Below, one piece after another: positions 3,230 through 51,405 of a stretch of 64,000 bases of DNA. Origin of the DNA: Kribbella pittospori. Lineage in GTDB: Bacteria > Actinomycetota > Actinomycetes > Propionibacteriales > Kribbellaceae. The stretch lies in contig NZ_SJKB01000003.1 of the NCBI RefSeq assembly GCF_004331465.1, positions 620,001 through 684,000 on the forward strand. Reading direction: 5' to 3'. Every line of letters starts with the position of its first letter. The stretch's first letter is position 1. The notes beneath the pieces are model-generated. The model saw only the letters and a program-made list of their open reading frames with translations, did no database searches and was not told the origin of the DNA. Position numbers and translations under genes: made by a program.

Positions 3230-3346
3230 GTCACTCCTTACCGGTGCAGGGCGGTGTCACGCGGTCCCGGAGGGCGACCGTACGGGCATCTTCCGTCCCA
3301 CACGCCGCCTGTGCAAGAGCCCGGGAGGACCCGACTCGCCGGGGCT

Positions 3347-3360
3347 GGCAAGCGTTTGCC
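3347..3360. promoter_or_regulatory. LacI-type operator between GH20 and Gfo/Idh genes
   Basis: GGCAAGCGTTTGCC is a 14-bp palindrome with two mismatched bases. Its core GCAAGCG-TTGC resembles the TGCAAGCGGTTGCA operators at 18.1-18.2 kb. A second, smaller palindrome (TGCCGATCTGGCA, 3357-3369) overlaps its right end. The site lies 51 bp upstream of the rightward start and 117 bp upstream of the leftward start. Control by one of the LacI proteins in the window is an inference. Confidence 0.5.
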
Positions 3361-3411
3361 GATCTGGCATAGGGTGAGCACTGAAACGTTGCCGAGTCGG
3401 GAGGAATCCGG

Positions 3412-4464
3412 GTGACTTCCACGCACGCAGTCAGGTTCGCCGCGGTCGGGCTTGATCACGCGCACATCTTCGGTCAGATCGCGGGCCTCGTGAAGGCCGG
3501 TGCCGAGTTCGTCGGGATGGCGACCGACGACCCCACGGCCGCGGTCGCGACCAGGGTCCGGGAGCGGTATCCCGAGGTTCCGGTGACCGAGAGTCCGGAC
3601 GACCTGATCGGCCAGGACGGGATCGACCTGATCGTCACCGCCGCCGTACCGGATCGCCGTGGGCCGATCGCGGTCGCGGCGTTGCTGGCCGGCAAGGACG
3701 TCGTCACCGACAAGCCCGGCTGCGTCAGTCTCGAGCAGCTCGACGAGATCGAGAAGGCTGTCGGCCAGAGCGGGCGGTTCTGGTCGGTGACGTTCTCGGA
3801 GCGGTTCGAGGTCGCCAGTGTGGTCAAGGCCGGTGAGCTGGTCCGCGAGGGCAAGATCGGGACCGTCGTACAGACCATCGGGCTCGGGCCGCACCGGGTC
3901 GGGGACCGCGCTCACCTCAGCGGTGGCGCCGGCCGCCCGGACTGGTTCTACGACAAGAACCGGTACGGCGGGATCCTCGCCGACATCGCGTCCCACCAGA
4001 TCGACCAGTTCCTCTGGTTCACCGGCGCACAGACCGCGGAGATCGTGACCAGCACGGTCGGGAACTTCGCCAACCCGGACGAGCCGGGCCTGCAGGACTT
4101 CGGTGAGATCCTGCTGCGCAGCGAGAACGCCCAGGGGTACATCCGGGTCGACTGGTATACCCCGGCCGGACTGCCGACCTGGGGCGACGGCCGCCTGATG
4201 ATCCTCGGCACCGACGGCTACATCGAGCTGCGCAAGTACGTCGACATCGCCGGCCGCGACGGCGGCGACCACCTCTTCCTGGTGAACCAGGAGGGCACGC
4301 AGTACATCGACTGCTCCGACGTCCAGACGACGTACTACCCCGACCTGGTCTGCGACGTACGCGAACGAACCACGACAGCCGCGCCCCAGGCCCACACCTT
4401 CGAAACCATGCGCCTGGCCCTGACGGCCCAGCAACAAGCAACCATCCGCGGCGCAGCCCGATGA
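3412..4464 (+). CDS. Gfo/Idh/MocA family oxidoreductase
   Basis: This 350-residue protein has an N-terminal Rossmann domain and the C-terminal alpha/beta domain of the NAD(P)-dependent sugar/inositol dehydrogenase family. The usual EKP motif is present as D100-K101-P102. The dinucleotide loop is atypical (GLDHAH rather than GxGxxG), a variant seen in family members of unknown substrate. The GTG start is supported by GGAGGA 7 bases upstream. It diverges from the GH20 gene, so a role in oxidising a released amino sugar or glycoside is plausible but not shown. Confidence 0.85.
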   Translation: MTSTHAVRFAAVGLDHAHIFGQIAGLVKAGAEFVGMATDDPTAAVATRVRERYPEVPVTESPDDLIGQDGIDLIVTAAVPDRRGPIAVAALLAGKDVVTDKPGCVSLEQLDEIEKAVGQSGRFWSVTFSERFEVASVVKAGELVREGKIGTVVQTIGLGPHRVGDRAHLSGGAGRPDWFYDKNRYGGILADIASHQIDQFLWFTGAQTAEIVTSTVGNFANPDEPGLQDFGEILLRSENAQGYIRVDWYTPAGLPTWGDGRLMILGTDGYIELRKYVDIAGRDGGDHLFLVNQEGTQYIDCSDVQTTYYPDLVCDVRERTTTAAPQAHTFETMRLALTAQQQATIRGAAR

Positions 4465-4465
4465 C

Positions 4466-5272
4466 CTAACGGGCGAGCTCCGCGGCGTGGTCGGGGACTT
4501 GGGTCTGCATGTCTCGCGGGGTTCGCTCGTAGCCTTTGGAAGGCGGGCGTGGCGGCAGGCCCAGCGGTGGTCGCTGGACCTCGTAGTACGGGATGGTCGA
4601 CAGCAGGTGCGCGATCATGTTGATCCGGGCCGAGCGCTTGTCCTCGCTCTCGACGACGTACCACGGCGCCTCCGGGATGTCGGTGTGCACGAACATCTCG
4701 TCCTTGGCGCGCGAGTAGTCCTCCCAGCGGGTGATCGACTCCAGGTCCATCGGTGACAGCTTCCACTGCCGCATCGGATCCTCGAGCCTCCTGCGGAACC
4801 GGTTCTCCTGCTCGCTGTCACTGACCGAGAACCAGTACTTGCGCAGCAGTACGCCGTCCTCGACCAGGAGCCGCTCGAAGATCGGGGACTGGTGCAGGAA
4901 CCGCGTGTACTCCTGGTTGGTGCAGAAGTCCATCACGCGCTCGACACCGGCCCGGTTGTACCAGGAGCGGTCGAACAGCGCGATCTCGCCGCCGGCCGGC
5001 AGGTGCTCGATGTACCGCTGGAAGTACCACTCGGTCCGCTCCCGCTCGGTCGGAGCCGGCAGCGCCACGATCCGCGCCAACCGGGGGTTGAGGTACTGCG
5101 TCACCCGCTTGATCGTGCTGCCTTTCCCGGCCGCGTCCCTGCCCTCGAAGACCACCACCACGCGGGCCTTCTCGACCCGGACCCACTCCTGCAGCTTCAC
5201 CAGCTCAGCCTGCAGCCGCAGCAACTCGCGCTCGTACACCTTCTTCTTCAACCGCTTCTTCGCGCCGCTCAT
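4466..5272 (-). CDS. ppk2: PPK2-family polyphosphate kinase
   Basis: The protein (268 residues from the ATG used here) carries the PPK2 P-loop GRDAAGKGS (about residues 44-52) and the Walker-B/lid region FDRSWYNRAGVERVM typical of one-domain PPK2 enzymes. Such enzymes transfer phosphate between polyphosphate and nucleotides. A lysine-rich N-terminus and proline-rich tail flank the kinase core. A GTG 18 bases upstream (5290) is an alternative start; the ATG begins the usual MSGAKKRLKKK N-terminus. The gene converges on the oxidoreductase with 1 bp between stops, and a GCCCG/CGGGC hairpin spans the junction. A second PPK2 lies at 54.8 kb. Confidence 0.9.
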   Translation of the reverse strand: MSGAKKRLKKKVYERELLRLQAELVKLQEWVRVEKARVVVVFEGRDAAGKGSTIKRVTQYLNPRLARIVALPAPTERERTEWYFQRYIEHLPAGGEIALFDRSWYNRAGVERVMDFCTNQEYTRFLHQSPIFERLLVEDGVLLRKYWFSVSDSEQENRFRRRLEDPMRQWKLSPMDLESITRWEDYSRAKDEMFVHTDIPEAPWYVVESEDKRSARINMIAHLLSTIPYYEVQRPPLGLPPRPPSKGYERTPRDMQTQVPDHAAELAR

Positions 5273-38671: not shown

Positions 38672-38732
38672 CCACAATGACCGGCGCGGCGAGCTGGTCG
38701 TTCCGGCGTACTGACACTGAAGGAGGTTGATC

Positions 38733-39293
38733 ATGTCCGAGATCGCACGTGCACTCGTCGTCTACGAGTCCATGTACGGCAACACCGCGCGGATCGCGTC
38801 CGCGATCTGCGTTGGTCTGCGGCAGAGCATTCCCACCGAGATGGTGCCGGCGTACCGGGCGCCGGCGGTGATCCCCGGCGATGTCCGCTTGCTGGTCGTG
38901 GGCGGACCGACGCACGCATTCTCGATGAGCCGGCCCTCCACACGCCAGGACGCCAGCAATCAGCACGGAGTGGTGATGCCGATCGAGGTCGGGATCCGCG
39001 AGTGGCTCGAGTCGCTGACCGCGGACACGACGTCCACCTCGGTACGCCGTCGTACCCGCGTCGACGTCGCAACTTTCGACACGCGCATCGCCAAGGTCCG
39101 CCGGCTCCCCGGCTCGGCCGCGAGGTCGGCGGCCAAGGTACTGCGCCGGTTGGGCTTCCGGGTGCTCCTCGGATCCGCGAGCTTCTTCGTGGACGAGTCG
39201 ACCGGACCCATCCGCGAAATCGAGATCGAACGCGCCCGCCGCTGGGGCGAAGACATCGGCCAACTGCACGCCGCCTCAGCCACCGCAGCCTGA
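38733..39293 (+). CDS. Flavodoxin-domain protein, copy 1
   Basis: The 186-residue protein starts with the flavodoxin phosphate loop VVYESMYGNTARIA and continues with LLVVGGPTHAFSMSRPSTRQ, as in FMN-binding flavodoxins. A C-terminal region of about 80 residues replaces the normal last strands. It is probably an electron carrier of the redox-stress set. AAGGAGG at 38720-38726 sets ATG 38733. A short ACCGGT/ACCGGT hairpin (39294-39312) follows the stop. Confidence 0.85.
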   Translation: MSEIARALVVYESMYGNTARIASAICVGLRQSIPTEMVPAYRAPAVIPGDVRLLVVGGPTHAFSMSRPSTRQDASNQHGVVMPIEVGIREWLESLTADTTSTSVRRRTRVDVATFDTRIAKVRRLPGSAARSAAKVLRRLGFRVLLGSASFFVDESTGPIREIEIERARRWGEDIGQLHAASATAA

Positions 39294-39331
39294 ACCGGTC
39301 CCGGCCACCGGTCAGCCCTTCGGCTGTGTGA

Positions 39332-39984
39332 TCACCAGGAGCGGATGCGGCGGCCGGAGATTCGGCGGGGTTCGATGGCTATGTAGGTCTCGCGCGTGCC
39401 ACCGGCCCAGGGCTCGACCCGGCCGAGGGCGACCTGGATCTCCTGGCCGGTGGCCGGCCGGACGGTGCCGTTCACCAGTACGCTCCAGCCGTCCTGAAGA
39501 CCCTCGTCGACGAAGTCGAGCTCGAACGCGATGGGCGCCAGGTCGTACTGAGCGACCGCGCTGTCGGCGGCTGTGCGGAAGACGATCAGGTCGTTCACGT
39601 AGCAGTAGTTGACCGGGATCACGAGCAGCTCGTCTGCCTGGTTGAACGCGATCCGCCCGACCACGCCGCCCTCGATCAGCTTGATGCACTCGTCCGGCGC
39701 ATCGGTTCCAGCTCCGGCTCCGGCGTCAGAACCGACGGTCGCGTCGGCCGGCTCCGGCGTGGTGCGAACAAGCCGCTGATGGTGGTGTCGAGCGCGCGCG
39801 ACAGTCTGAGGAGCTCACCCCCGGTCAGCGCGTCCGGATCCGTCTCGATGTGCTCGATGCGGCGCGTGCTCATCCCAGTGCGTTCGGCGACTTCCGCCGT
39901 ACTCAGTCCCAACTCGAGCCGACGATGCTTGACTCGCCGGCCGAAGTCACCCGGCACCTCACCGTTCTGCGACCTGTTCTCCAT
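39332..39984 (-). pseudogene. XRE-PPOX fusion gene broken by a single-base frameshift
   Basis: The 5' part (39984 to 39676) encodes an XRE helix-turn-helix (RVKHRRLELGLSTAEVAERTGMSTRRIEHIE) and runs to PEPELEPM, then a stop. The other frame continues as PDECIKLIEGGVVGRIAF and then the PPOX flavin-binding domain (LLVIPVNYCYVND, GWSVLVNGTVRP) to 39332. Related actinobacterial proteins are single HTH-PPOX chains with L-x-PDEC at this junction. One missing base near 39697-39700 therefore splits the gene. The halves could still be made separately, the second from GTG 39664. It diverges from the DevR-like gene, with two Dos-like boxes between. Confidence 0.65.
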
Positions 39985-40101
39985 GCGGCCTCCGCCTCCC
40001 TTCGTTCTGTCCTTCCAGGCAACCAGGCGGGTGGCCAGAGACGCAGGGGACGAAGGCCTGAGACAGTGGGCCGGGCGGTCGCCTGCACGCCGCGACGGAA
40101 C

Positions 40102-40115
40102 AGGCCAAAAGTCCC
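40102..40115 (-). promoter_or_regulatory. Dos-like box 5
   Basis: Read on the minus strand: GGGACTTTTGGCCT. It lies 118 bp upstream of the XRE-PPOX gene and 94 bp upstream of the DevR-like gene, in their shared control region. Confidence 0.6.
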
Positions 40116-40124
40116 GTGTGGGGC

Positions 40125-40138
40125 GGGACAGTTGCCCC
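40125..40138 (+). promoter_or_regulatory. Dos-like box 6
   Basis: GGGACAGTTGCCCC, the most symmetric copy (GGGAC-AGTT-GCCCC), 70 bp upstream of the DevR-like gene. It suggests autoregulation. Confidence 0.6.
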
Positions 40139-40208
40139 TCGTCCGTGGCGTAGCCGGAGATGGATGCTGGAGGCGGAGCATACGGCGGGTGAGTCCGAAG
40201 GAGATGAG

Positions 40209-40862
40209 ATGACGATCAGGGTCTTTCTGCTGGACGACCACGAGGTGGTCCGGCTGGGGCTGCACCAACTGCTCGAGGACGAGCCGGACATCGAGGTGGT
40301 GGGTGACGCTTCGACCGCCGCGGAGGCGCTCGCGCGGATCCCCGCCGTACAGCCCGATGTCGCTCTGCTCGACGTCCGGCTGCCCGACGGCGACGGCGTG
40401 TCCGTCTGCCGCGAGATCCGCTCCACCATGGACAACCCGCCGGCTTGCCTGATGCTCACGTCGTACTCCGACGACGAAGCGCTGTTCACCGCGATCATGG
40501 CCGGAGCCGCCGGCTACCTGTTGAAGCAGGTGCACGCCAGCGATCTGGTCGGGGCGATCCGCCGCTTGGCCGCGGGGGAATCCTTGCTCGACCCCGCCAT
40601 GACCCAGAAGGTCCTCGAGCGCCTGCGCCACCCAGTGGTCGAGGAGGACCCCCGGTACGCCACCCTCACCGAGCAGGAGCGCAAGATCCTCGCCGAGATC
40701 GCCGTCGGCAAGACCAACCGCCAGATCGCGCAATCGCTCTACCTGGCCGAGAAGACCGTCAAGAACTACGTCTCCTCCCTGCTGCGCAAACTCAACGTGG
40801 AACGCCGCACCGAAGCCGCCGTCTTCGCCATCGAACACGCCAAGAACCACCCCAAGACCTAG
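40209..40862 (+). CDS. devR: DevR/DosR-like NarL-family response regulator
   Basis: The 217-residue protein has a receiver domain with phospho-acceptor D55 (LLDVRLPDG), T84 and K106 (GYLLKQV), then a LuxR/NarL helix-turn-helix at about 152-206. The recognition segment LAEKTVKNYVSSLLRKL and the tail RRTEAAVFA match mycobacterial DevR/DosR closely, including K182, K185 and N186 in the DNA-contacting helix. It should bind the Dos-like boxes of this region, two of which precede it. AAGGAG lies upstream of ATG 40209. Its partner kinase is probably the gene at 43.5-45.3 kb. Confidence 0.88.
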   Translation: MTIRVFLLDDHEVVRLGLHQLLEDEPDIEVVGDASTAAEALARIPAVQPDVALLDVRLPDGDGVSVCREIRSTMDNPPACLMLTSYSDDEALFTAIMAGAAGYLLKQVHASDLVGAIRRLAAGESLLDPAMTQKVLERLRHPVVEEDPRYATLTEQERKILAEIAVGKTNRQIAQSLYLAEKTVKNYVSSLLRKLNVERRTEAAVFAIEHAKNHPKT

Positions 40863-40875
40863 CGACGATCACCTG

Positions 40876-41397
40876 TCACGACCAGTCAGGGGTGCTGGGT
40901 TGGGTGGCGGAGATGGCGGCACTGACGTCGGCGGACCAGGTGCGGATCTTGTCCCAGTCGCGGAAGTCACCCGCCAGGTTGCCGGTGGCCAGGCGGCCGG
41001 CGAGGAAGCCCTTGGCGGTGGCCGGCTCGAGTCGGCCCGCGAAGGTCATCGGGGGAGTCGCTCCGATCTGGCGAGCGAGTCGTCGGACGACCGGAGGCAG
41101 CTCCTGGGCTTGGTGCTTGTCGGGACCAACTGGGCCGCTGTGGAAGAGCCAGACCTGCCGCTCGCTGAGCTCATCACGGTTCCTTCGCAGGAACTGCACG
41201 GCCTCGCGCCGCCAGCGCCGGATGTAGATGGCGCTGCCGAGGACCACGACGTCGTACGGCGCGACGGTAGGGACGGACGTGACGTCGAGGACGTCGACTT
41301 GGTGGCCGTGCGCCCGCAGTTCGGTGCCGATCGCCTCAGCGATGCCCGCGGTCGCGCCCATCTTGGTGGCGTAGGCAACCAATACCTTCGTGGACAT
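40876..41397 (-). CDS. Flavodoxin-domain protein, copy 2
   Basis: The 173-residue protein begins with the FMN phosphate loop VAYATKMGATAGIAEAIG and has VVVLGSAIYIRRWRREAVQFL. This resembles HemG-like or menaquinone-dependent flavodoxin-domain proteins. It is distinct from copy 1 in sequence. Two tandem Dos-like half-matching boxes lie 35-67 bp upstream. It is convergent with the DevR-like gene. Confidence 0.85.
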   Translation of the reverse strand: MSTKVLVAYATKMGATAGIAEAIGTELRAHGHQVDVLDVTSVPTVAPYDVVVLGSAIYIRRWRREAVQFLRRNRDELSERQVWLFHSGPVGPDKHQAQELPPVVRRLARQIGATPPMTFAGRLEPATAKGFLAGRLATGNLAGDFRDWDKIRTWSADVSAAISATQPSTPDWS

Positions 41398-41431
41398 CGA
41401 GATCTCCTTCCGTTCGTTTCCAGCACATCAG

Positions 41432-41464
41432 CAACCGAACGACCGGGTCAGTGCCGAACGACCT
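41432..41464 (-). promoter_or_regulatory. Tandem degenerate Dos-like boxes 7 and 8
   Basis: On the minus strand AGGTCGTTCGGCAC (41451-41464) and CGGTCGTTCGGTTG (41432-41445) are direct repeats 19 bp apart, about two helical turns. The first matches GGGACTTTCGGCTC at 10 of 14 positions. They fill the space between the stress-protein stop and the flavodoxin start. Confidence 0.45.
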
Positions 41465-41467
41465 GGG

Positions 41468-42283
41468 TCATTGGGTCTGATGACTTTCGACGGCCGAGGT
41501 GGGGATCACGGCTACCGGGCAGGGGGCCTGGTGCAGGACGGTTTGGCTGACTGAGCCGAGGAGCAGGCCGGCGAAGCCGCCGCGGCCGCGGGAGCCTACG
41601 ACCAGGAGTTGGGCGTCGGCGGACCATTCGAGTAGCAGCTCGGCCGGGTGGCCGGTGACCTGAACGATCTCAGCCGTCCGCACGTCCTGCTGGGTCGGCA
41701 GGGGTGACCCGACGTCATCTTCGTCCTCGGGTAGGACCGTGACGATCCGGGCGACGAGTCCGTGGCGGTCGGCGTACTGGAGACCGAAGTCGACGGCGGC
41801 GTCGGCGGCGGGAGAGCCGTCGTACCCGATCACCACCCGGTTCCCGACCACTGCGTCTTCTGCGGGACGTACGGCGACCACCGGGCAGTGCGCGTGGGCA
41901 GCGAGCTCCAGTCCGGTGGAGCCGACCAGCAGTCCGAGCGCCCGGCCGGCATCGCGGCTGCCGATCACGATCAGCTCGGCGTTCCGGGACTCCGCCAGCA
42001 GCACGGGGGAGGGGAAGCCGTCGACCCGGTCGGCCGTGACGGATACGCGAGGCTCGAACGTGCGCGCCAGGTCCAGCGCCTCGGCAACGATCTTGTCGGC
42101 CGCGGCACGAAGCCCCGGCGCGGCATCGCTCGGTCCCAACGGCACCCGGAACTCCGCCCACACGAACGCATGGACGAGATGGAGACCGGCACCGCGGGCC
42201 GCCGCTTCGACCGCGCCCCAGCGGATCGCGCTCTCGCTGTCGCCCGCACCGTCGATGCCGACGACAACTCTCTTCTCAGCCAT
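41468..42283 (-). CDS. Tandem-domain universal stress protein, second copy
   Basis: The 271-residue protein has two USP domains, each with an ATP loop (GSRDAGRALGLLVGSTG and GSRGRGGFAGLLLGSVS) and the family openings VVVGIDGAGDS and VVIGYDGSPAAD. The C-terminal halves of this and the first USP are similar (SVSQTVL-QAPCPVAVIP). A Dos-like box lies 37 bp upstream of the start. It probably binds ATP and acts in dormancy or redox stress. Confidence 0.92.
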   Translation of the reverse strand: MAEKRVVVGIDGAGDSESAIRWGAVEAAARGAGLHLVHAFVWAEFRVPLGPSDAAPGLRAAADKIVAEALDLARTFEPRVSVTADRVDGFPSPVLLAESRNAELIVIGSRDAGRALGLLVGSTGLELAAHAHCPVVAVRPAEDAVVGNRVVIGYDGSPAADAAVDFGLQYADRHGLVARIVTVLPEDEDDVGSPLPTQQDVRTAEIVQVTGHPAELLLEWSADAQLLVVGSRGRGGFAGLLLGSVSQTVLHQAPCPVAVIPTSAVESHQTQ

Positions 42284-42319
42284 GCCACCACGATGCCGGT
42301 GCGAGGCACCACCAGCGCA

Positions 42320-42333
42320 GGGGCGAAGGTCCC
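42320..42333 (-). promoter_or_regulatory. Dos-like box 9
   Basis: On the minus strand GGGACCTTCGCCCC, a near-symmetric copy (GGGAC-CTTC-GCCCC), 37 bp upstream of the second universal stress protein. Confidence 0.6.
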
Positions 42334-42358
42334 GCGCGTCCGGTGCCGACGGCCCTTA

Positions 42359-42457
42359 TCAGCGGACGCGGGGCAGATCCGCGGCCTCGAAGCGGATGGC
42401 GAGGCGGTCGAGCTCGGTCTCCCAGCGCTCGATCTCCTGCTGCAACGAACTGGTCAT
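42359..42457 (-). CDS. Micro-protein gene (32 codons) coupled to the nitroreductase
   Basis: The ATG at 42457 overlaps the nitroreductase stop as ATGA. The frame encodes MTSSLQQEIERWETELDRLA followed by IRFEAADLPRVR, an amphipathic helix with heptad-like spacing of hydrophobic residues. I recognise no family. Coupling to a real gene, a compact helical product and a location immediately before the Dos-like box of the next gene support it as real. Confidence 0.5.
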   Translation of the reverse strand: MTSSLQQEIERWETELDRLAIRFEAADLPRVR

Positions 42458-43431
42458 GTCTCCACCCCGGTGCGAAGGAACTCCGAGACCGGCCTCCGGC
42501 CGGTTCCGTTGCCGGGCCGGCCAGGCGCGAAACGGATGATCATGTGCGCGTGTCCCGGCCGCTGCGTCAGTCGCTGCACCGCACGGCGCAGGTCGTCGAA
42601 CTCCAGCGGCTGGTTCAGGAACGATGCGGTGACGCCTTCACGGGTCGCGGTCAGCAGCACTCGTTCGAGGGCCAGCCCCGCCGCGACCTGGTCCGCAGGC
42701 TGGTCGCCTTCCGTCGACAGGATGGCCAGGTTCGGGTGTTCCTCGAACGTCGTCTCCGCGCGCATCCGGTCGACCGGCCGGGTAGCCATGTCCCGAACGG
42801 CTGCCGGGTAGCTGGCCGGCCGTGGCCCGAGCGCCGTACTCGGGATGCCTTCGGTGGTGCGGTCACCGCCGACCCAGCGCGCCCGTTCGGCGCGGCGATG
42901 CCAGTCGTGGACTTCGCGGAGATCGGTGTCCACGACCATGTCGAGTACGGCGCGGACCTCGGTTTCGCCGAGCCAGGTCAGTTCCGCATCTTCGGCGTAC
43001 GCGGCCTGCAACAGAGCGACCTTGGTGCCCTCCAGCAGCGGCTGCGCGCCGGACGGGCGGCGATCGGTGTGGCGCCTGGGGATCTGCTGCGCGAGGTCAC
43101 GCCGGTCCTCGTCCGGCCTGCTGGTGGGTTCGACGACGATCCGGGCCAGTAGGTCAGGTTCGTCCGCGTACGGCGCCAGGCCGAGCCAGGTGCCGTAACC
43201 GAGGGACTCGGCCGCGCACCGCAGGTTGAAGGTCGCCGCGCCGGCCGCGATCCGCATGGCCCGGCCCGTCGGGTCCTCTGCCGGCAACGTGCGCGAGCCG
43301 TCGACGAACAGGTCGATGACGTGCCCTCCGACCTCGAACCGCCAAGGCTGGGTGTTGTGCATGCTCGGTGCGGCGACGGCCGCCGCGAGCAGTACGTCGA
43401 TGTGTTCAGCCGACAGCTGCCGCTCAGACAC
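42454..43431 (-). CDS. Acg-type FMN-binding nitroreductase
   Basis: The 325-residue protein opens with a nitroreductase-like AAAVAAPSMHNTQPWRFEV and has a duplicated, diverged nitroreductase fold, as in the Acg (Rv2032) subfamily. Members of that subfamily belong to the mycobacterial DosR regulon and are thought to sequester or use flavin. A Dos-like box lies 65 bp upstream. The gene is followed by a coupled micro-protein gene. Confidence 0.87.
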   Translation of the reverse strand: MSERQLSAEHIDVLLAAAVAAPSMHNTQPWRFEVGGHVIDLFVDGSRTLPAEDPTGRAMRIAAGAATFNLRCAAESLGYGTWLGLAPYADEPDLLARIVVEPTSRPDEDRRDLAQQIPRRHTDRRPSGAQPLLEGTKVALLQAAYAEDAELTWLGETEVRAVLDMVVDTDLREVHDWHRRAERARWVGGDRTTEGIPSTALGPRPASYPAAVRDMATRPVDRMRAETTFEEHPNLAILSTEGDQPADQVAAGLALERVLLTATREGVTASFLNQPLEFDDLRRAVQRLTQRPGHAHMIIRFAPGRPGNGTGRRPVSEFLRTGVET

Positions 43432-43495
43432 CGGAATCTCCTCCCACTGGTACGTCTTCTCCTTCAGCGTGGCCGGTGGGAGGACGGCGCCGCTG

Positions 43496-43509
43496 CGGGC
43501 AAGAGTCCT
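43496..43509 (-). promoter_or_regulatory. Dos-like box 10
   Basis: On the minus strand AGGACTCTTGCCCG, 65 bp upstream of the nitroreductase start and just past the end of the sensor kinase gene. Confidence 0.55.
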
Positions 43510-43532
43510 GACTCGGGGAGGCCGTTCGGCCG

Positions 43533-45275
43533 TCAGTTGATCGGAGCCCTGAACTCCACGATCGTTCCGTGGGGCTGGTTGTCGGAGATCTGAACGCCTC
43601 CGCCGAGCGCTTGGGCGCGTTCGGTGAGGTTGCGCAGGCCACTGGAGCGACGGCGCGGCCCGATGCCGACACCGTCGTCAGAGATCCTGGCGACGACCTG
43701 CTCGGAGTCGACCGACAACTCGACGGTGACCTGCGAGGCCCCGGCGTGACGGACGACGTTGGACAGCGACTCCCGGACGGTCGCGAGAATCTGTGGCCGG
43801 ACGGCGGTCGGTACGACGGTGTCGATCGGGCCGGTGCAGATCAGCTGCGGCCGGAACCCGAGCGGCTCGGTGTACTCCGTGACCATCGCCTGGACACTCC
43901 CGCGGAGCGAACTGCTGTCAGGCGTCTGCTGGAGCTCGAAGATCGCAGCCCGCAGATCGTGGATGGTCGTGTCGATGTCGTCGACCGCCCGGCTGAGCCG
44001 CAGTTGATGCTCGGGTCGGGCCAGCCGGTGCATGCCCTGGAGCTGCAGCCCGGTCGCGAAGAGTCGCTGGATCACCAGGTCGTGCAGGTCCCTCGCGATC
44101 CGATCGCGGTCCTCGAGCACGAGAATCGTGTCCCGGTCACGCTGTGCCTGGGCACGTTCCAGGGCCAGCGTGGCCTGGCCGGCGAACATCCGGATCAGGT
44201 CGGAGCCTTCGGAGACCGTGCTGCTCGCGCCCTGCTCGGCGGCGACCACGAGGAGTCCGCCGGTGTCGGTACTGCCGGCGGGTAGTGGCACCATCGTCGT
44301 ACGGCCGAGGGTTGTGCCTTCGGGGAAGTCGGTCAGTACGCCGGCATCCTTGAGAAGCCGGGCCAGATCGTCGATCACGACCTGTTCGCCACCGGCGATC
44401 GCGCGGCCGAGGAGTGGAAGGTCGGCCGAGACGCGGCGCCCGAGGAAGCGGCCGAACTCGGGCGGACCGTCGACGGCACTGACCACCAACTCCGAGTCCT
44501 CAGTGAGCAGTACTGCCGCGACCTGGGCGCCGGATACCTCGCGTGACCGCTGCGCGATCAGGAGGAGTGCCTGCTCGGGACCGAAGTCGCCGAGCATCAA
44601 CTGGGTGATCTCGGCGGTGACCTCGTGCCACCGCCGGCGTTGCTCGGTGTCGGCGTACAGCCTGGCGTTGTCGATCACGACGCCGGCCGCGGCCGCGAGT
44701 GCGGTGACGGTGCGCTCGTCGTCCTCGGTGAAGTCGGCGCCGCCGGTCTTCTCGGTCAGGTACAGGTTGCCGTACGCGTGCTCCCTGGTCCGGATCGGTA
44801 CGCCGAGGAAGGACTTCATCGGAGGGTGGTTCGCCGGGAAACCGTACGAGCGCGGATGCTCGGCAAGATCCGTGAGCCGGATGGGCTCGGGATGGTCGAT
44901 CAGCAGGCCGAGGATGCCGTGCCCTTCGGGATACGGGCCGATGGCCGCGATCTCCTCGTCGCTGACACCGTGAGTGATGAAGCGGACGAGGCGCTTGCCG
45001 TCCGGGCCGACCACACCCAGTGCGCCGTACCGGGAATCGGCCAGCTCGCAGGCGGCGCTGACGATCCGGTCCAGGGTGCTGTTCAGATCGAGGTCCGCGC
45101 CGATCCCGACGACTGCATCGAGCAGCGCCCGTAGCCGCTCCTGGGAGTCCATGATCTCGTCGACCCGGCCGAGCAGTTCCTGCAGCAGCGCGTCGAGACG
45201 CACCCGGGAGAGTCCGGCGAACTCCAGCGCCCCCTCGTCCCAGCGTCCCCGCTCCGCACGCGAACCCTCAGGCAC
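43533..45275 (-). CDS. devS: DevS/DosS-like GAF-domain sensor histidine kinase
   Basis: The 580-residue protein has two GAF domains (about 65-205 and 232-372), a HisKA_3 dimerisation helix with phospho-acceptor H397 (RDRIARDLHDLVIQRLF), and an HATPase domain (ESLSNVVRHAG, SDDGVGIG). Length and order equal those of mycobacterial DevS/DosT. H150 in FPANHPPMKSFLGVPI falls where the heme-ligand histidine of DosS GAF-A lies (H149 by my recollection), which suggests a heme-based O2/NO/redox sensor. It should phosphorylate the DevR-like regulator. The GTG start has a weak ribosome site. No good Dos-like box precedes it; GACTTTCCG at 45287-45296 is a poor match. Confidence 0.88.
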   Translation of the reverse strand: MPEGSRAERGRWDEGALEFAGLSRVRLDALLQELLGRVDEIMDSQERLRALLDAVVGIGADLDLNSTLDRIVSAACELADSRYGALGVVGPDGKRLVRFITHGVSDEEIAAIGPYPEGHGILGLLIDHPEPIRLTDLAEHPRSYGFPANHPPMKSFLGVPIRTREHAYGNLYLTEKTGGADFTEDDERTVTALAAAAGVVIDNARLYADTEQRRRWHEVTAEITQLMLGDFGPEQALLLIAQRSREVSGAQVAAVLLTEDSELVVSAVDGPPEFGRFLGRRVSADLPLLGRAIAGGEQVVIDDLARLLKDAGVLTDFPEGTTLGRTTMVPLPAGSTDTGGLLVVAAEQGASSTVSEGSDLIRMFAGQATLALERAQAQRDRDTILVLEDRDRIARDLHDLVIQRLFATGLQLQGMHRLARPEHQLRLSRAVDDIDTTIHDLRAAIFELQQTPDSSSLRGSVQAMVTEYTEPLGFRPQLICTGPIDTVVPTAVRPQILATVRESLSNVVRHAGASQVTVELSVDSEQVVARISDDGVGIGPRRRSSGLRNLTERAQALGGGVQISDNQPHGTIVEFRAPIN

Positions 45276-45323
45276 GGCCTCAGACTACGGAAAGTCGTCG
45301 GTGATGTGAACCAGAGTTGGGGT

Positions 45324-45770
45324 CTACGAGACGCCAGTGTGTGGACGCCGCGCCCAGGGGAGCAGCCGTCGTCCGTGGACCGATTCGATTCCCAGCCGGA
45401 TCAGTTGCGGATCGTCCATCGGGAGCCAGGAGTGCAGCGGGAGCGAACGGCGCAGGGCCTCGGCCTCATCCGCCGAGACCACAGACAGGTGGCCGATGGC
45501 TGTGACGGTCCAGCCGAGCTGGCGATCGAGATCGACCTCGTCGGCCTCGAAGGCCACCACGTCACCGCGCTCCGCCGCGCGCAGCTTCTGCCCGGGTCCG
45601 GTGTTCAGAACGATGGTGTCGTCGTCCAGCAAGAAGTTGACCAGCCGGATCGCCGGGAGACCACCGAGCGTGTAGACCAACCGGCCGAGCGGAACCGAAC
45701 GGAGCAGCCGCAAACACTCCGGCGGACTCAGAACCTCGAGATGCGACTGGTCGAACTGGGTGGTGGTCAT
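45324..45770 (-). CDS. PPOX-family (pyridoxamine 5'-phosphate oxidase-like) protein
   Basis: The 148-residue protein has the split-barrel flavin/F420-binding fold pattern: LSPPECLRLLRSVPLGRLVYTLGGLPAIRLVNFLLDD, then VVAFEADEVD and GWTVTAIGHLSVV. This is the domain that is fused to an HTH in the broken gene at 39.3-40.0 kb. Such proteins occur in DosR-type regulons. GGAG precedes ATG 45770. A Dos-like box lies 106 bp upstream. Confidence 0.87.
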   Translation of the reverse strand: MTTTQFDQSHLEVLSPPECLRLLRSVPLGRLVYTLGGLPAIRLVNFLLDDDTIVLNTGPGQKLRAAERGDVVAFEADEVDLDRQLGWTVTAIGHLSVVSADEAEALRRSLPLHSWLPMDDPQLIRLGIESVHGRRLLPWARRPHTGVS

Positions 45771-45909: not shown

Positions 45910-46530
45910 TCAAGCGTTCGCCGCCTCCGCGCCGGCTCGGAAGAAGGCGAGTACGGCGGCCGCGTCGGGAAGCTCGGACATCGGCCGGGCGGCGCCGAAC
46001 GGCTGGTTCCAGAAGTCACCGGTCCGCGGCGTCCACGGACCGACGTACGCGTAGGGCTCCGGGATTGTGTCGTCGCCGGGCGATACGCCGTAGTTGACCT
46101 CGCCCACGCTGATGCCGACGTCGAAGTGTTCGGGCCACAGCACCGGCTCCTCGGCCGGCGCCAGGGCGCGGAGGGCGCTGTCGCCGTGGGCGAAGGCGTC
46201 GGCCAGGACGCGCGCCGCTTGGGGATCGATTTCGATCCTGTCGTCCGGCCGAAATTCGGGACCACCTGAGTACACGTCGTCGAGCCGTCTGGCCTCGACG
46301 CCGACGCGGTCCGCCAGCTCGGCAAGGCTTCCGGCCAGCGGCACGGACGCCGTCGGGGTGACCAGTGTGACGCCGTCGACGCGCAGGTCCGGCATCACCA
46401 CCGTGGCGAAGCCACCGGGTACGACGCGGAGCCTGATGTCACTGCTGTGCCGGTACTGCGGTCCCGCCAGCACCAGCTCGGCGACACCGTGCAGGGACCG
46501 GCGGGTTACGGCAAGCGAACGTTCGTCCAT
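45910..46530 (-). CDS. Conserved hypothetical protein
   Basis: The 206-residue soluble protein has no signal peptide or membrane span. It is rich in aromatic and acidic residues near the C-terminus (VLWPEHFDVGISVGEVNYGVSPGDD, YVGPWTPRTGDFWNQPFGA), a pattern common to a family of uncharacterised actinobacterial proteins. I cannot assign a function. ATG 46530 is supported by AGGAGGAG upstream. It diverges from the Rieske-ThDP fusion gene. Confidence 0.65.
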   Translation of the reverse strand: MDERSLAVTRRSLHGVAELVLAGPQYRHSSDIRLRVVPGGFATVVMPDLRVDGVTLVTPTASVPLAGSLAELADRVGVEARRLDDVYSGGPEFRPDDRIEIDPQAARVLADAFAHGDSALRALAPAEEPVLWPEHFDVGISVGEVNYGVSPGDDTIPEPYAYVGPWTPRTGDFWNQPFGAARPMSELPDAAAVLAFFRAGAEAANA

Positions 46531-46577: not shown

Positions 46578-46616
46578 TCTCACATGGTCCGTGTCACGAG
46601 GGGCAGGAGGCGTTAC

Positions 46617-48545
46617 ATGTCGGGCAACTGGCATCGAGTGGACGAGGGCGACGTACCGGATGACGGCAGGGTCCGCAGTGTGGTGGTGGACGGCCGGAGC
46701 ATCGCGCTCGCGCGGTGCGGGCTGCGGCTGGGTGCGCTGGAGAACAGGTGCCCGCATCAGGGCGGCCCGCTGGGGGAGGGCTCCATCGAGAAGGGGCTGC
46801 TGCGGTGTCCCTGGCATGGGTACGACTACGACCCGATCACCGGTCAGCCGCCGGAGGGGTTCTCCGACGGCGTTCCGTCGTACCCGGTGGACGAGCGGGC
46901 GGACGGTGTCTACGTCCAGCTGCCCGAACCGCCGGAGCCGGTGCGCACTGTTGCCGACGTACTGGTCGAGACCTTGGTTGCCCATGGCATCACTCACGTG
47001 TTCGGCATGGTCGGGCACTCGAACCTCGGGTTCGCGGAGGCGATGCGACGGGCGGAGGCACGCGGCGAGCTGACCTACATCGGGATCCGGCACGAGGGCG
47101 CGGCCGCGTTCGCCGCCAGTGCGTACGGAAAGCTGACCGGCCGGCCCGCAGCCTGTTTCGCGATCGCCGGTCCGGGGTCGACCAACCTGCTGACCGGACT
47201 GTACGACGCCAAGCTCGACGGCTCGCCCGTGGTCGCCATCTCGGGGCAGGTGCCGTCCAAGGTGCTCGGCCGGGGAGCGTTCCAGGACCTCGATCTGACC
47301 GCCGTCTTCAAGGACGTCGCGGTGTCCAGTACCGCGGTCCAGGCCGGGAGCGATCACGCCGAGCTGGCGGCCCTGGCGGTCAAGCATGCGCTTGACGGTC
47401 GCGGCGTGGCTCATCTGGTCCTGCCTGACGAGGTGCAGGTACTGCCGTCTGAGGCAGCGGCGAAGGATTCGGTCGGACGGTTGTCCCGGCGCTGCATCCG
47501 GCCCGACGAGGACACCTTGGTCCGGGCGGCCGCACTGATCCGCGATGCTCGTCGGCCGGCTCTGATCGTCGGTCACGGTGCGCGCGGCGCCGAGGAGCAG
47601 GTACGGGCGTTGGCCGAGCGGCTGAACGCTCCGGTGCTGACGACGTTCAAGGCCAAGGGCCTGGTGCCCGACAGCCATCCACTCGGTGCGGGTGTGCTCG
47701 GCCGCAGCGGCACACCGGTGGCCAGCTGGCTGATGAACGAGTCGGATCTGCTGATCGTGATCGGCGCTTCGTTCTCGAACCACACCGGCATCGCCAACTA
47801 CAAGCCGATCGTGCAGATCGACGACCACCATGCCGCCATCGGCCGCTTCGATGCCGTCACCGTGGACGTCCTCGGCGACGCCGCACTCGCCCTCGATGCA
47901 CTGAGCGGACTGCTGACCGAGACCAAGTCCGAGGACCAGCGCGCCGATGTCGCCGAGCGCTGGGCGATCTGGCGGGCGGAGAAGGCGCGCCGCGTGAACG
48001 ACGACCGCGGTCGCGGCGTCTCGGCCGCGGCAGTGTTCGACGCACTGTCCCGGCACCTCCCGACCGACGCGGTGGTGACTGTCGACGTCGGCAACCATGC
48101 CTACTCGCTCGGTCGCTACCTGGAGTCCGAAGGGCAGCCGGTGCTGATGTCGGGGTACCTCGGCTCGATCGGGTTCGGGTATCCGGCCGCTCTCGGCGCC
48201 TGGGCCGGGGCGCCCGGCCGGCCGATCGTCGCGGTCACCGGCGACGGCGGATTCGGACAGTACGCCGCCGAGCTCACCACCGCCGTCAAGTACGGCATCC
48301 CGATCAAGCACGTCCTGCTCGACAACCATTCGCTGGGCAAGATCAGCAAGGAACAACTCGCCGCCGACTACCCGGTCTGGCACACCTCGCTGCACAACCC
48401 CGACTGGGCGTCGTACGCCGAACTCTGCGGCGCCACCGGGCTGCGCGTCACCCGTCGCGAGGAACTCGACGACGCGATGACCGCACTCTTTGCCACCACC
48501 GGACCGGCCCTGCTCTGTGTCGAGCAGGACGCCGAGCTGCTATGA
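46617..48545 (+). CDS. Rieske [2Fe-2S] domain fused to a ThDP-dependent enzyme
   Basis: The 642-residue chain begins with a Rieske domain (about 1-105) with ligands C45-H47 (RCPHQGGPL) and C64-H67 (RCPWHGYDY). A complete ThDP enzyme of the pyruvate oxidase/acetolactate synthase family follows: pyrimidine-binding domain from about 110 with catalytic glutamate E160 (IRHEGAAAF), central domain, and the ThDP/Mg motif GDGGFGQYAAEL at 542 with a later N. The fused cluster could pass electrons from 2-keto-acid decarboxylation to an acceptor. GGCAGGAGG fixes ATG 46617. An FMN-reductase-like gene follows after 16 bp, a possible redox partner. Confidence 0.9.
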   Translation: MSGNWHRVDEGDVPDDGRVRSVVVDGRSIALARCGLRLGALENRCPHQGGPLGEGSIEKGLLRCPWHGYDYDPITGQPPEGFSDGVPSYPVDERADGVYVQLPEPPEPVRTVADVLVETLVAHGITHVFGMVGHSNLGFAEAMRRAEARGELTYIGIRHEGAAAFAASAYGKLTGRPAACFAIAGPGSTNLLTGLYDAKLDGSPVVAISGQVPSKVLGRGAFQDLDLTAVFKDVAVSSTAVQAGSDHAELAALAVKHALDGRGVAHLVLPDEVQVLPSEAAAKDSVGRLSRRCIRPDEDTLVRAAALIRDARRPALIVGHGARGAEEQVRALAERLNAPVLTTFKAKGLVPDSHPLGAGVLGRSGTPVASWLMNESDLLIVIGASFSNHTGIANYKPIVQIDDHHAAIGRFDAVTVDVLGDAALALDALSGLLTETKSEDQRADVAERWAIWRAEKARRVNDDRGRGVSAAAVFDALSRHLPTDAVVTVDVGNHAYSLGRYLESEGQPVLMSGYLGSIGFGYPAALGAWAGAPGRPIVAVTGDGGFGQYAAELTTAVKYGIPIKHVLLDNHSLGKISKEQLAADYPVWHTSLHNPDWASYAELCGATGLRVTRREELDDAMTALFATTGPALLCVEQDAELL

Positions 48546-48561
48546 CCACGAAGGAGACACC

Positions 48562-49278
48562 ATGCCTGAAACCTTGCCCGAGTACGACGACCTCCGCGCC
48601 CTGTTCCTGAACTGCACGCTGAAGCGCTCGCCGGACGTCAGCAACACCGAGGGGCTGATCGACGTCAGCCGGAAGATCCTGGAGAAGCAGGGCGTCCAGG
48701 TCGACGTGATCCGCCCGATCGACCACGACATCGCCACCGGGGTCTGGCCGGACATGACCGAGCACGGCTGGGCGACCGACGGCTGGCCGGCGATCCAGCG
48801 GCAGGTGATGGACGCCGACATCCTGGTGATCGCCGGCCCGATCTGGCTGGGCGACAACAGTTCCGTCACCAAGCAGGTGATCGAACGCTTGTACGGCAAC
48901 TCGTCGATCCTCAACAAACACGGTCAGTACGCGTACTACGGCCGGGTCGGCGGTTGCCTGATCACCGGGAACGAGGACGGCGTGAAGCACTGTGCGATGA
49001 ACATCCTGTACTCGCTGCAGCACCTCGGCTACACCGTCCCACCGCAGGCCGACGCCGGCTGGATCGGGGCGGCCGGACCCGGCCCGTCGTACCTGGACGA
49101 GGGATCCGGCGGCCCGGACAACGACTTCACCAACCGCAACACGACGTTCATGACCTGGAATCTGTTGCACCTGGCAAGGATGCTGAAGGACGCGGGCGGT
49201 GTCCCGGCGTACGGCAACCAGCGCTCCGAGTGGGATGCCGGCTGCCGGTTCGACTTCGAGAACCCGGAGTACCGCTGA
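48562..49278 (+). CDS. NAD(P)H-dependent FMN reductase-like flavoprotein
   Basis: The 238-residue protein has a flavodoxin-like fold. It opens ALFLNCTLKRSPDVSNTEGLI (phosphate loop) and has DILVIAGPIWLGDNSSVTKQVIERL and GGCLITGNEDGVKHCAMNILYSLQHLG, as in NADPH-dependent FMN reductases and related quinone reductases. It lies in an operon with the Rieske-ThDP protein. AAGGAG precedes the ATG. Confidence 0.88.
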   Translation: MPETLPEYDDLRALFLNCTLKRSPDVSNTEGLIDVSRKILEKQGVQVDVIRPIDHDIATGVWPDMTEHGWATDGWPAIQRQVMDADILVIAGPIWLGDNSSVTKQVIERLYGNSSILNKHGQYAYYGRVGGCLITGNEDGVKHCAMNILYSLQHLGYTVPPQADAGWIGAAGPGPSYLDEGSGGPDNDFTNRNTTFMTWNLLHLARMLKDAGGVPAYGNQRSEWDAGCRFDFENPEYR

Positions 49279-49310
49279 ACACTCTGCTGTACGGTCGGCG
49301 TGTGGGGGTC

Positions 49311-49937
49311 ATGCCGTCGGACGACGTGCTGGTCGCCGGCCTACGGGCCGGGGACGAGGAGACGTTCGCCTGCCTGCTGAACGGCTGGTCGGGATCGATG
49401 CTGCGACTGGCCCGGACCTTCGTGTCGACGACGGCCAGCGCCGAGGAGGTCGTCCAGGACACCTGGCTGGCCGTGTTCCAGGGCATCGGCCGGTTCGAAG
49501 GCCGCTCGTCGCTGCAGACCTGGGTCTACCGGATCCTGGTCAACGTCGCCCGCCGGCGCGGCACGCACGAGCAGCGAACGGTGCCGTGGGCCAGTCTGGT
49601 CCCGGACGAGGGACCGACCGTCGACCCGAGCCGGTTCCGCGGGGCGGACGACCAGTATCCGGGCGGTTGGCGGGCGTTCCCGGAACGCTGGCCGACGACC
49701 GAGAACGAAGTACTCGCGCACGAGGTCAGGGCGACGGTGGCCGAGGCGATCGAGAAACTGCCGCCGCGGCAGCAGGTGGTGCTGACCTTGCGTGACATCG
49801 ACGGACAGACGGCGGATGACGTGTGCGCCCTGCTGGGTATCTCCACGGCGAACCAGCGCGTCATCCTGCACCGGGCCCGCGCGGCGGTCCGCGGCCACCT
49901 CGAACGGTATTTCACGACGGCCGGAGCTGAGTCATGA
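49311..49937 (+). CDS. ECF RNA polymerase sigma factor
   Basis: The 208-residue protein has sigma region 2 (LARTFVSTTASAEEVVQDTWLAVFQGIGRFEGRSSLQTWVYRI) and region 4 (AIEKLPPRQQVVLTLRDIDGQTADDVCALLGISTANQRVILHRARAAV). The linker of about 70 residues between them is longer than usual. Its ATGA overlap with the following zinc-finger gene marks a sigma/anti-sigma pair. Likely targets carry the TGTAACG motif found twice nearby. GTG 49302 is an alternative start. Confidence 0.9.
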   Translation: MPSDDVLVAGLRAGDEETFACLLNGWSGSMLRLARTFVSTTASAEEVVQDTWLAVFQGIGRFEGRSSLQTWVYRILVNVARRRGTHEQRTVPWASLVPDEGPTVDPSRFRGADDQYPGGWRAFPERWPTTENEVLAHEVRATVAEAIEKLPPRQQVVLTLRDIDGQTADDVCALLGISTANQRVILHRARAAVRGHLERYFTTAGAES

Positions 49938-50202: not shown

Positions 50203-51405
50203 ATGCCAGACGTGGAGTTCACCAATCTGTTCGTGGTCGCGGCGCTCGCGCTGCTCGCCCCACTGCTGCTCGGGTTCGCTCCGCGACTGCGGCTGCCGGC
50301 TGTGGTGCTGGAGATCGTGGCCGGCATCGTCGTCGGCCCGCATGGCCTCGGACTGGTCCAGATCGACGAGCCGGTGCAGATCGTCGCCCTGCTGGGACTG
50401 GGGTTCCTGCTGTTCCTGGCCGGGCTCGAGATCGACGTACGTCGGTTGCGCGGCCCGACACTCCGGCTCGCGCTCCTCGGCTATCTGGTCACGCTGGTGC
50501 TCGGCAGTGTCGCCGGCATCGGCTTCTCGGCGGCCGGGTGGGTCAACAGCGTGCTGCTGCTCGCGGTCACCCTGTCTGCCACGTCACTGGGTCTCGTGGT
50601 GCCGGTGCTCAAGGACGCGGGCAAAGCCGACGGCGCGGTTGGTCAGTTCACCATCGCCGCGGCCTCGGTGGCCGACTTCGCCGCCGTCCTGGTGCTGTCC
50701 CTGGTCTTCTCGACCGAGGGCGGCAGTCCGGGGGAGCGGCTCGTCATGGTCGGGCTGTTCGCACTCCTCGTGCTGGTCACCGGATTCGTCGTGGCCACGG
50801 CCGGACGGTCACAGCGGATCGGCGGCGTGCTGGAGCGATTGCAGGACACCACGGCCGAGATCCGGGTCCGGGCCGCCGTCGTACTGCTGGTCGCATTCGT
50901 CGCACTGGCCGAACGGTTCGGGCTGGAGACGATCCTCGGCGCCTTCCTCGCCGGAGCGGTGGTCGGACTGGTCGACCGCGACTCGAGCTCGCACCCACGC
51001 TTCCGGACCAAGCTGGACGCACTCGGCTACGGCTTCCTCATCCCGGTCTTCTTCGTGACCAGCGGCCTCCGCCTCGACCTCCGCGGTCTGCTCGACGATC
51101 CGGCCGCACTGCTCCGCGTTCCGCTCTTCCTACTCGCCCTGCTCGTCGTCCGCGGCGTACCGGCGTACCTCGCAGTGCGGACACTGGGTCCCCGAGCAAC
51201 AACCGCGACGGCACTGCTCCAGGCGACCTCGTTGCCGTTCATCGTCACAGCGACGCAGATTGGCGTGATCACCGGCCTGATGGGACCAGTCACCGCCGCC
51301 GCCCTCGTCTGCGCAGGCCTCCTGTCGGTGCTGATCTTCCCGGCCACCGCCCTGGCCCTGCTGAAACAACCCGCTGCCGACCGAGCAACAGCGCGCCAGG
51401 TCTGA
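50203..51405 (+). CDS. CPA2-family cation:proton antiporter
   Basis: The 400-residue protein has about 12 hydrophobic spans and the Kef/NapA-type features LEIVAGIVVGPHGLGLV, FLLFLAGLEIDVRRLR and AGAVVGLVDRDS. It lacks the C-terminal RCK/TrkA domain of KefB/KefC. It probably exchanges Na+ or K+ for protons at the cytoplasmic membrane. It follows the sigma/anti-sigma genes and may belong to the same stress unit. Confidence 0.88.
   Translation: MPDVEFTNLFVVAALALLAPLLLGFAPRLRLPAVVLEIVAGIVVGPHGLGLVQIDEPVQIVALLGLGFLLFLAGLEIDVRRLRGPTLRLALLGYLVTLVLGSVAGIGFSAAGWVNSVLLLAVTLSATSLGLVVPVLKDAGKADGAVGQFTIAAASVADFAAVLVLSLVFSTEGGSPGERLVMVGLFALLVLVTGFVVATAGRSQRIGGVLERLQDTTAEIRVRAAVVLLVAFVALAERFGLETILGAFLAGAVVGLVDRDSSSHPRFRTKLDALGYGFLIPVFFVTSGLRLDLRGLLDDPAALLRVPLFLLALLVVRGVPAYLAVRTLGPRATTATALLQATSLPFIVTATQIGVITGLMGPVTAAALVCAGLLSVLIFPATALALLKQPAADRATARQV

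Follow-up and report, generated by a model that had tools for sequence, protein, structure and literature searches.

Oxidative ThDP enzymes acting on 2-oxo acids are grouped by the destination of their electrons, namely oxygen, quinone, ferredoxin or lipoamide. PFOR couples ThDP chemistry to one-electron iron-sulfur transfer, and AHAS binds FAD that is not used in its net reaction. The closest described relatives of the enzyme considered here are E. coli PoxB (pyruvate:ubiquinone oxidoreductase; PDB 3ey9/3eya) and C. glutamicum PQO (9ev5). In PoxB, activation by lipid at the membrane works through a C-terminal helix, which places F465 in the active site and accelerates transfer from ThDP to FAD (PMC7245740). 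Rieske ferredoxins such as CarAc and T4MOC (PDB 1vck and 1vm9) are separate proteins feeding oxygenases, and the low potential of a Rieske ferredoxin has been attributed to missing serine hydrogen bonds (PMC11638306). A literature search, with most subscription journals outside its scope, found no paper describing the fusion of a Rieske domain to a ThDP enzyme; one paper on Desulfotomaculum that features rubredoxin and a ThDP enzyme (PMC8084838) proved unrelated, since it concerns a separate DUF35 zinc ribbon gene.

In the window, by which we mean the whole 64,000 nucleotides of Kribbella pittospori DNA analysed, both types of module lie in one intact frame without an internal stop (Rieske-ThDP; Table 1), and AGGAGG at 46605-46610, just 5' of the ATG, provides the gene with its own ribosome-binding site. 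The intact Rieske site and complete ThDP enzyme claimed for this chain in an earlier note are both present, with C45, H47, C64, H67, E160 and G542-D543-G544 confirmed in the translation and matches to Pfam Rieske and to all three ThDP-enzyme domains. An AlphaFold2 model (mean pLDDT 89.6, pTM 0.87) used as a Foldseek query retrieved AHAS, PoxB (TM-score 0.90 on the target, 3eya), POX and C. glutamicum PQO.

Table 1. Features of the Rieske-ThDP locus, in positions of the window.
Feature	Positions	Strand	Basis and remarks
Divergent 206-aa gene, no Pfam family, LWPEHFD motif	45910..46530	-	Conserved neighbour of Rieske-ThDP in many actinobacteria, whichever the partner type
Rieske-ThDP fusion enzyme, 642 aa	46617..48545	+	ORF, Pfam, homologue alignment, AlphaFold2
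Ferredoxin-type Rieske domain, residues 10-78, ligands C45, H47, C64, H67	46644..46850	+	Pfam Rieske (E 4e-12), alignment; closest solved structures: CarAc and T4MOC-type ferredoxins
ThDP enzyme PYR domain, residues 111-228; catalytic E160 = PoxB E50	46947..47300	+	Pfam TPP_enzyme_N, alignment
Central domain, residues 303-429; holds FAD in PoxB/AHAS	47523..47903	+	Pfam TPP_enzyme_M, alignment; cofactor-facing loops highly conserved in the Rieske-ThDP family
PP domain, residues 490-633; GDG...N (D543, N570); K575 at the PoxB F465 position	48084..48515	+	Pfam TPP_enzyme_C, alignment; PoxB/PQO tail missing, last residue 642
Flavodoxin-like FMN protein (PF03358, FMN_red), 238 aa; putative electron partner	48562..49278	+	16 bp 3' of the Rieske-ThDP stop; recurrent neighbour
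ECF-type sigma factor	49302..49937	+	Conserved neighbour further downstream
Cation:proton antiporter (PF00999)	50203..51405	+	Conserved neighbour in actinobacterial relatives

The maximum-likelihood tree, built from 49 rows of the ThDP part, had all Rieske-fused enzymes in one clade (100/100), which grouped with a set of rubredoxin-fused enzymes (99/95) beside the PoxB/PQO-type enzymes, and a branch of 100/100 parted AHAS from the carrier-fused clade and PoxB/PQO together. Judged by sequence, Rieske-ThDP thus belongs beside the quinone-linked pyruvate oxidases and not the acetolactate synthases, and the pyruvate-oxidase affinity proposed earlier is borne out by tree and alignment. It shares with PoxB and PQO, the sister clade of the carrier-fused group, the PYR-FAD-PP three-domain chain, the catalytic Glu and the GDG...N motif at about 30% identity, and it differs from them by an added N-terminal Rieske domain, the loss of the C-terminal lipid-activation tail, K575 in place of F465 and the motif FSNHTG where PoxB has FPYR. 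It scored below the curated cut-offs of the NCBIfam pyruvate oxidase / pyruvate dehydrogenase models (384 bits vs 742) and of AHAS (TIGR00118; 308 bits vs 538). K575 is invariant in the family and, since it occupies the F465 position, the active site differs from that of PoxB and pyruvate should not be assumed as the substrate. FAD in the conserved central domain is probable, because many of its invariant residues lie in loops that would correspond to those facing FAD in AHAS.

The two ends of the chain have changed in opposite ways. After position 636 six residues remain in 79 of 80 Rieske enzymes (one is cut short) and 6-15 in the rubredoxin enzymes, as against 33-52 in PoxB and in every unfused relative of the alignment; the lipid-activation and membrane tail of PoxB/PQO is absent from every carrier-fused member aligned. 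These enzymes therefore carry an iron module instead of the membrane module, and the Rieske domain appears to replace the tail as electron outlet. The domain itself scored 46 bits against a Pfam gathering cut-off of 20.3 and holds the CxH and CxxH ligands. Taken alone, its nearest structures were CarAc, T4MOC and naphthalene-dioxygenase ferredoxins, not the bc1 Rieske proteins. Like CarAc and T4MOC, it combines the CxH...CxxH motif with the lack of the extra bc1 disulfide cysteines, and it also lacks the Ser beside the second ligand pair; because these features, which raise the potential of bc1 Rieske proteins, are absent, the predicted cluster is likely to be of low potential. Unlike the free-standing ferredoxins, the fused domain probably takes electrons away from its enzyme rather than supplying them.

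At the same N-terminal position the sister group, found at five loci (L102-L106), has a rubredoxin (CxxC...CxxC, Pfam Rubredoxin) in place of the Rieske domain. These proteins resemble Rieske-ThDP in having an N-terminal iron carrier and no C-terminal tail, and differ in their FeCys4 site, as against a Rieske [2Fe-2S] cluster, and in having Met or Asn at the K575 position; their monophyly is weakly supported in the full tree (85/44). The exchange of two unlike one-electron iron carriers at one end of the same enzyme is hard to explain except by a role in electron transfer. The rubredoxin-ThDP gene occupies 785-2566 of L106 and 1550-3316 of L102, where the following gene (3332-5164) resembles a second ThDP enzyme of transketolase type.

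A scan of 84,980 species genomes returned 390 encoding stretches, of which the best 80 were read; being the top-scoring loci, these are biased to close relatives. The same domain order recurs in these 80 loci, whose matches cover practically the full length of the chain, Rieske part included (L051 in broken segments). The four Rieske ligands and E160 are invariant in 80 of 80 sequences (79 alignable homologues of the best 80 plus the window), and the ThDP catalytic residues are likewise invariant in the alignment of the family. Hosts are mainly Actinomycetota (Kribbella, Lentzea, Amycolatopsis, Pseudonocardia, Nocardioides, Frankia, Mycobacterium, Acidimicrobiia and Thermoleophilia), with others labelled as Acidobacteriota, Planctomycetota, Myxococcota, Bacteroidota, Krumholzibacteriota and the cyanobacterium Leptothoe; the labels of metagenome bins may be wrong, and one 'Acidobacteriota' bin behaved as an actinobacterium. 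Occurrence within Kribbella is patchy (10 of 37 genomes). The fusion was present in 11 of 396 sampled Actinomycetota genomes and in 10 of 199 genomes of a phylum sample around a Planctomycetota bin, a search aimed at Acidobacteriota returned largely the same actinobacterial genomes as the Actinomycetota sample, and the cyanobacterial sample held no Rieske-ThDP apart from that of Leptothoe. One genome (G143) has two copies (L093 and L130), one of them with a flavodoxin-like gene about 0.1 kb away. That the fusion is an artefact of assembly or gene calling has almost no probability: one assembly (G000) is marked as 9% contaminated, no other support was found, and the frame is free of internal stops, has its own ribosome-binding site and recurs, with invariant ligands, in 80 loci from independent genomes and in ten genomes of the genus set.

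The FMN gene that follows after 16 bp, already pointed out in the earlier note, is a recurrent partner of Rieske-ThDP, but it is also widespread without it. Its product is a sequence relative of PDB 5mji. In tblastn searches of the best 80 of 390 loci this flavodoxin-like gene adjoined Rieske-ThDP in 22, and a glutamate-synthase-like gene (GltS-like; PF01645), usually directly upstream and often with a 1-base overlap, did so in 23. One FMN partner type was adjacent in 45 of the 80 loci and both in none (Fisher p 1e-4, relatedness ignored). The GltS-like protein shares with ferredoxin/NADPH-dependent glutamate synthase the PF01645 FMN domain and all three [3Fe-4S] cysteines; it differs in having no glutaminase domain and in having gained a Rieske or rubredoxin module. 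Beside Rieske-ThDP it has its own N-terminal Rieske domain wherever the N-terminus is on the contig, and beside rubredoxin-ThDP a rubredoxin-GltS gene is found in two of the five loci (L105 and L106). Four unfused PQO-type enzymes of one subclade are neighboured by an unfused GltS gene. The pair states are thus none/none, rubredoxin/rubredoxin and Rieske/Rieske, and no mismatched pair was seen where a GltS-type gene whose N-terminus is visible adjoins a ThDP gene. The unfused pairs (L194, L195, L207 and L208, in Kribbella and other large actinobacterial genomes) suggest that the link between ThDP and GltS-type genes may be older than the carriers. The fusion of rubredoxin to a GltS FMN domain lies at 2563-4071 of L106, adjacent to the ThDP fusion, and also occurs in L212, L213 and L214, with no ThDP fusion on the stretch read.

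Co-occurrence was also counted across whole genomes. Among 396 Actinomycetota genomes, Rieske-GltS was found in 5 of the 11 that have Rieske-ThDP and in 2 of the 385 that lack it (p 1e-7), and the flavodoxin-like protein in 7 of 11 and 55 of 385, respectively (p 3e-4), both by Fisher tests that ignore relatedness; ten of the 11 hold one or other partner. A set of 50 genomes with Rieske-ThDP, 22 of them chosen for adjacency, contained 42 with at least one partner, four with both and eight with neither. Strict exclusivity of the two partners consequently holds for adjacency (no locus with both) and not genome-wide (4 of 50 with both), and the flavodoxin-like gene is rejected as an exclusive partner, being present in 62 of the 396 actinobacterial genomes. 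This Kribbella genome yielded no Rieske-GltS but just one GltB-like frame of canonical length, which leaves the flavodoxin-like protein as the best candidate partner here.

On balance we favour, with reasonable though far from full confidence, Rieske-ThDP as a soluble, FAD-assisted, decarboxylating 2-oxo-acid dehydrogenase derived from PoxB/PQO, passing single electrons through its tethered Rieske domain to an FMN partner. The scheme that follows is inferred as to the binding of cluster and FAD, the 2-oxo acid used, which way the electrons run and which molecule accepts them. ThDP would attack the 2-oxo acid with release of CO2, and the two electrons of the enamine would pass, probably, to FAD in the central domain and from there singly to the low-potential [2Fe-2S] cluster of the tethered Rieske domain. 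The docking partner of the cluster would be an FMN flavoprotein: in Kribbella the flavodoxin-like protein encoded next door, in many relatives the Rieske-tagged GltS-like FMN/[3Fe-4S] protein. The Rieske domain would assume the electron-outlet role of the C-terminal membrane tail; a GltS-type partner could use the electrons for reduction of 2-iminoglutarate or another imine. PFOR follows the same principle of ThDP chemistry with one-electron iron-sulfur transfer, but it is of a different subfamily, CoA-dependent and equipped with [4Fe-4S] clusters. More tentatively, the carrier-tagged ThDP dehydrogenase and the carrier-tagged GltS-like FMN protein may form a modular pair that swaps electrons via matched N-terminal iron modules and drives a reduction, for example an amination, without NAD(P)H, the flavodoxin-like protein standing in for the GltS-like one in Kribbella and its relatives. 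The unusual electron path suspected in the earlier note gains backing from the tree and alignment, and the rubredoxin sister proteins, the missing C-terminal tail and the carrier-matched FMN neighbour genes go beyond that note, the first two of these also supporting the path. The family looks like a further electron route, with the membrane outlet of PoxB lost and a Rieske or rubredoxin module fitted at the opposite end, and the matched carriers on the GltS-like neighbour suggest that the iron module may serve as a plug standard between two enzymes.

Three observations count against the favoured reading: F465, important for ThDP-to-FAD transfer in PoxB, is an invariant lysine, eight of 50 genomes hold neither FMN partner, and 55 of the 385 genomes that lack Rieske-ThDP have the flavodoxin-like protein all the same. 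The lysine would suit an account in which the ThDP part catalyses a non-oxidative decarboxylation or carboligation and is switched on or off by a Rieske domain that acts as redox or oxygen sensor or has a structural role, for which AHAS, with its FAD unused in the net reaction, offers a precedent. We regard this as unlikely, since the enzyme is sister to the oxidative PoxB/PQO and not to AHAS, and since the Rieske/rubredoxin exchange and the matched carriers of the FMN neighbours fit an electron route rather than a sensor; these last two findings tell against this rival more than against the others. The genomes with neither partner would in turn agree with a Rieske domain that links the enzyme to quinone or another respiratory acceptor, the protein remaining a pyruvate:quinone oxidoreductase in which the Rieske cluster replaces direct transfer from FAD to quinone, as the quinone linkage of its closest relatives (tree; PMC7245740) would also allow. 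This, too, is rather improbable, given that the membrane-activation tail has gone from all carrier-fused members, that there is no transmembrane or quinone-binding part, and that a Rieske domain of soluble ferredoxin type stands beside genes for soluble FMN proteins. Inward flow, in which the FMN partner and Rieske cluster would feed a reductive reaction at the ThDP site, would follow the habit of Rieske ferredoxins in oxygenase systems, which usually take their electrons from a flavoprotein and deliver them to a catalytic site, and the Pfam name of the FMN neighbour is indeed that of a reductase. We consider it very unlikely, as the nearest relatives in the tree are oxidative and we know of no close ThDP relative that runs in this direction.

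Upstream of Rieske-ThDP, positions 38727-45746 of the window hold a DosR-like group comprising Usp, a nitroreductase, a GAF histidine kinase, a LuxR-type response regulator, a flavodoxin-like gene and two Pyridox_ox_2 genes. The earlier note had read this position as a functional clue, which is a weak argument: when four genes (Usp, GAF kinase, nitroreductase and Pyridox_ox_2) were tested across the 80 loci, homologues near Rieske-ThDP were found only in K. capetownensis, which is 98% identical, and DosR-box-like palindromes were not in excess (66 found vs 92 expected), with none just upstream of the gene. Hypoxia adaptation through DosR is unsupported as a general feature, and the neighbourhood is local context. 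The product of the divergent 206-aa gene was compared in an alignment of 24 homologues and modelled (AlphaFold2 pLDDT 96.8); in a fold search with this model no PDB entry scored below E 0.9 (TM-score about 0.2), so that the predicted structure is possibly an unseen fold. A different conserved setting occurs in four loci, mostly from marine Acidimicrobiales bins (L058, L059, L081 and L083), in which Rieske-ThDP is flanked by peroxiredoxin-like and ABC-transporter-like genes.
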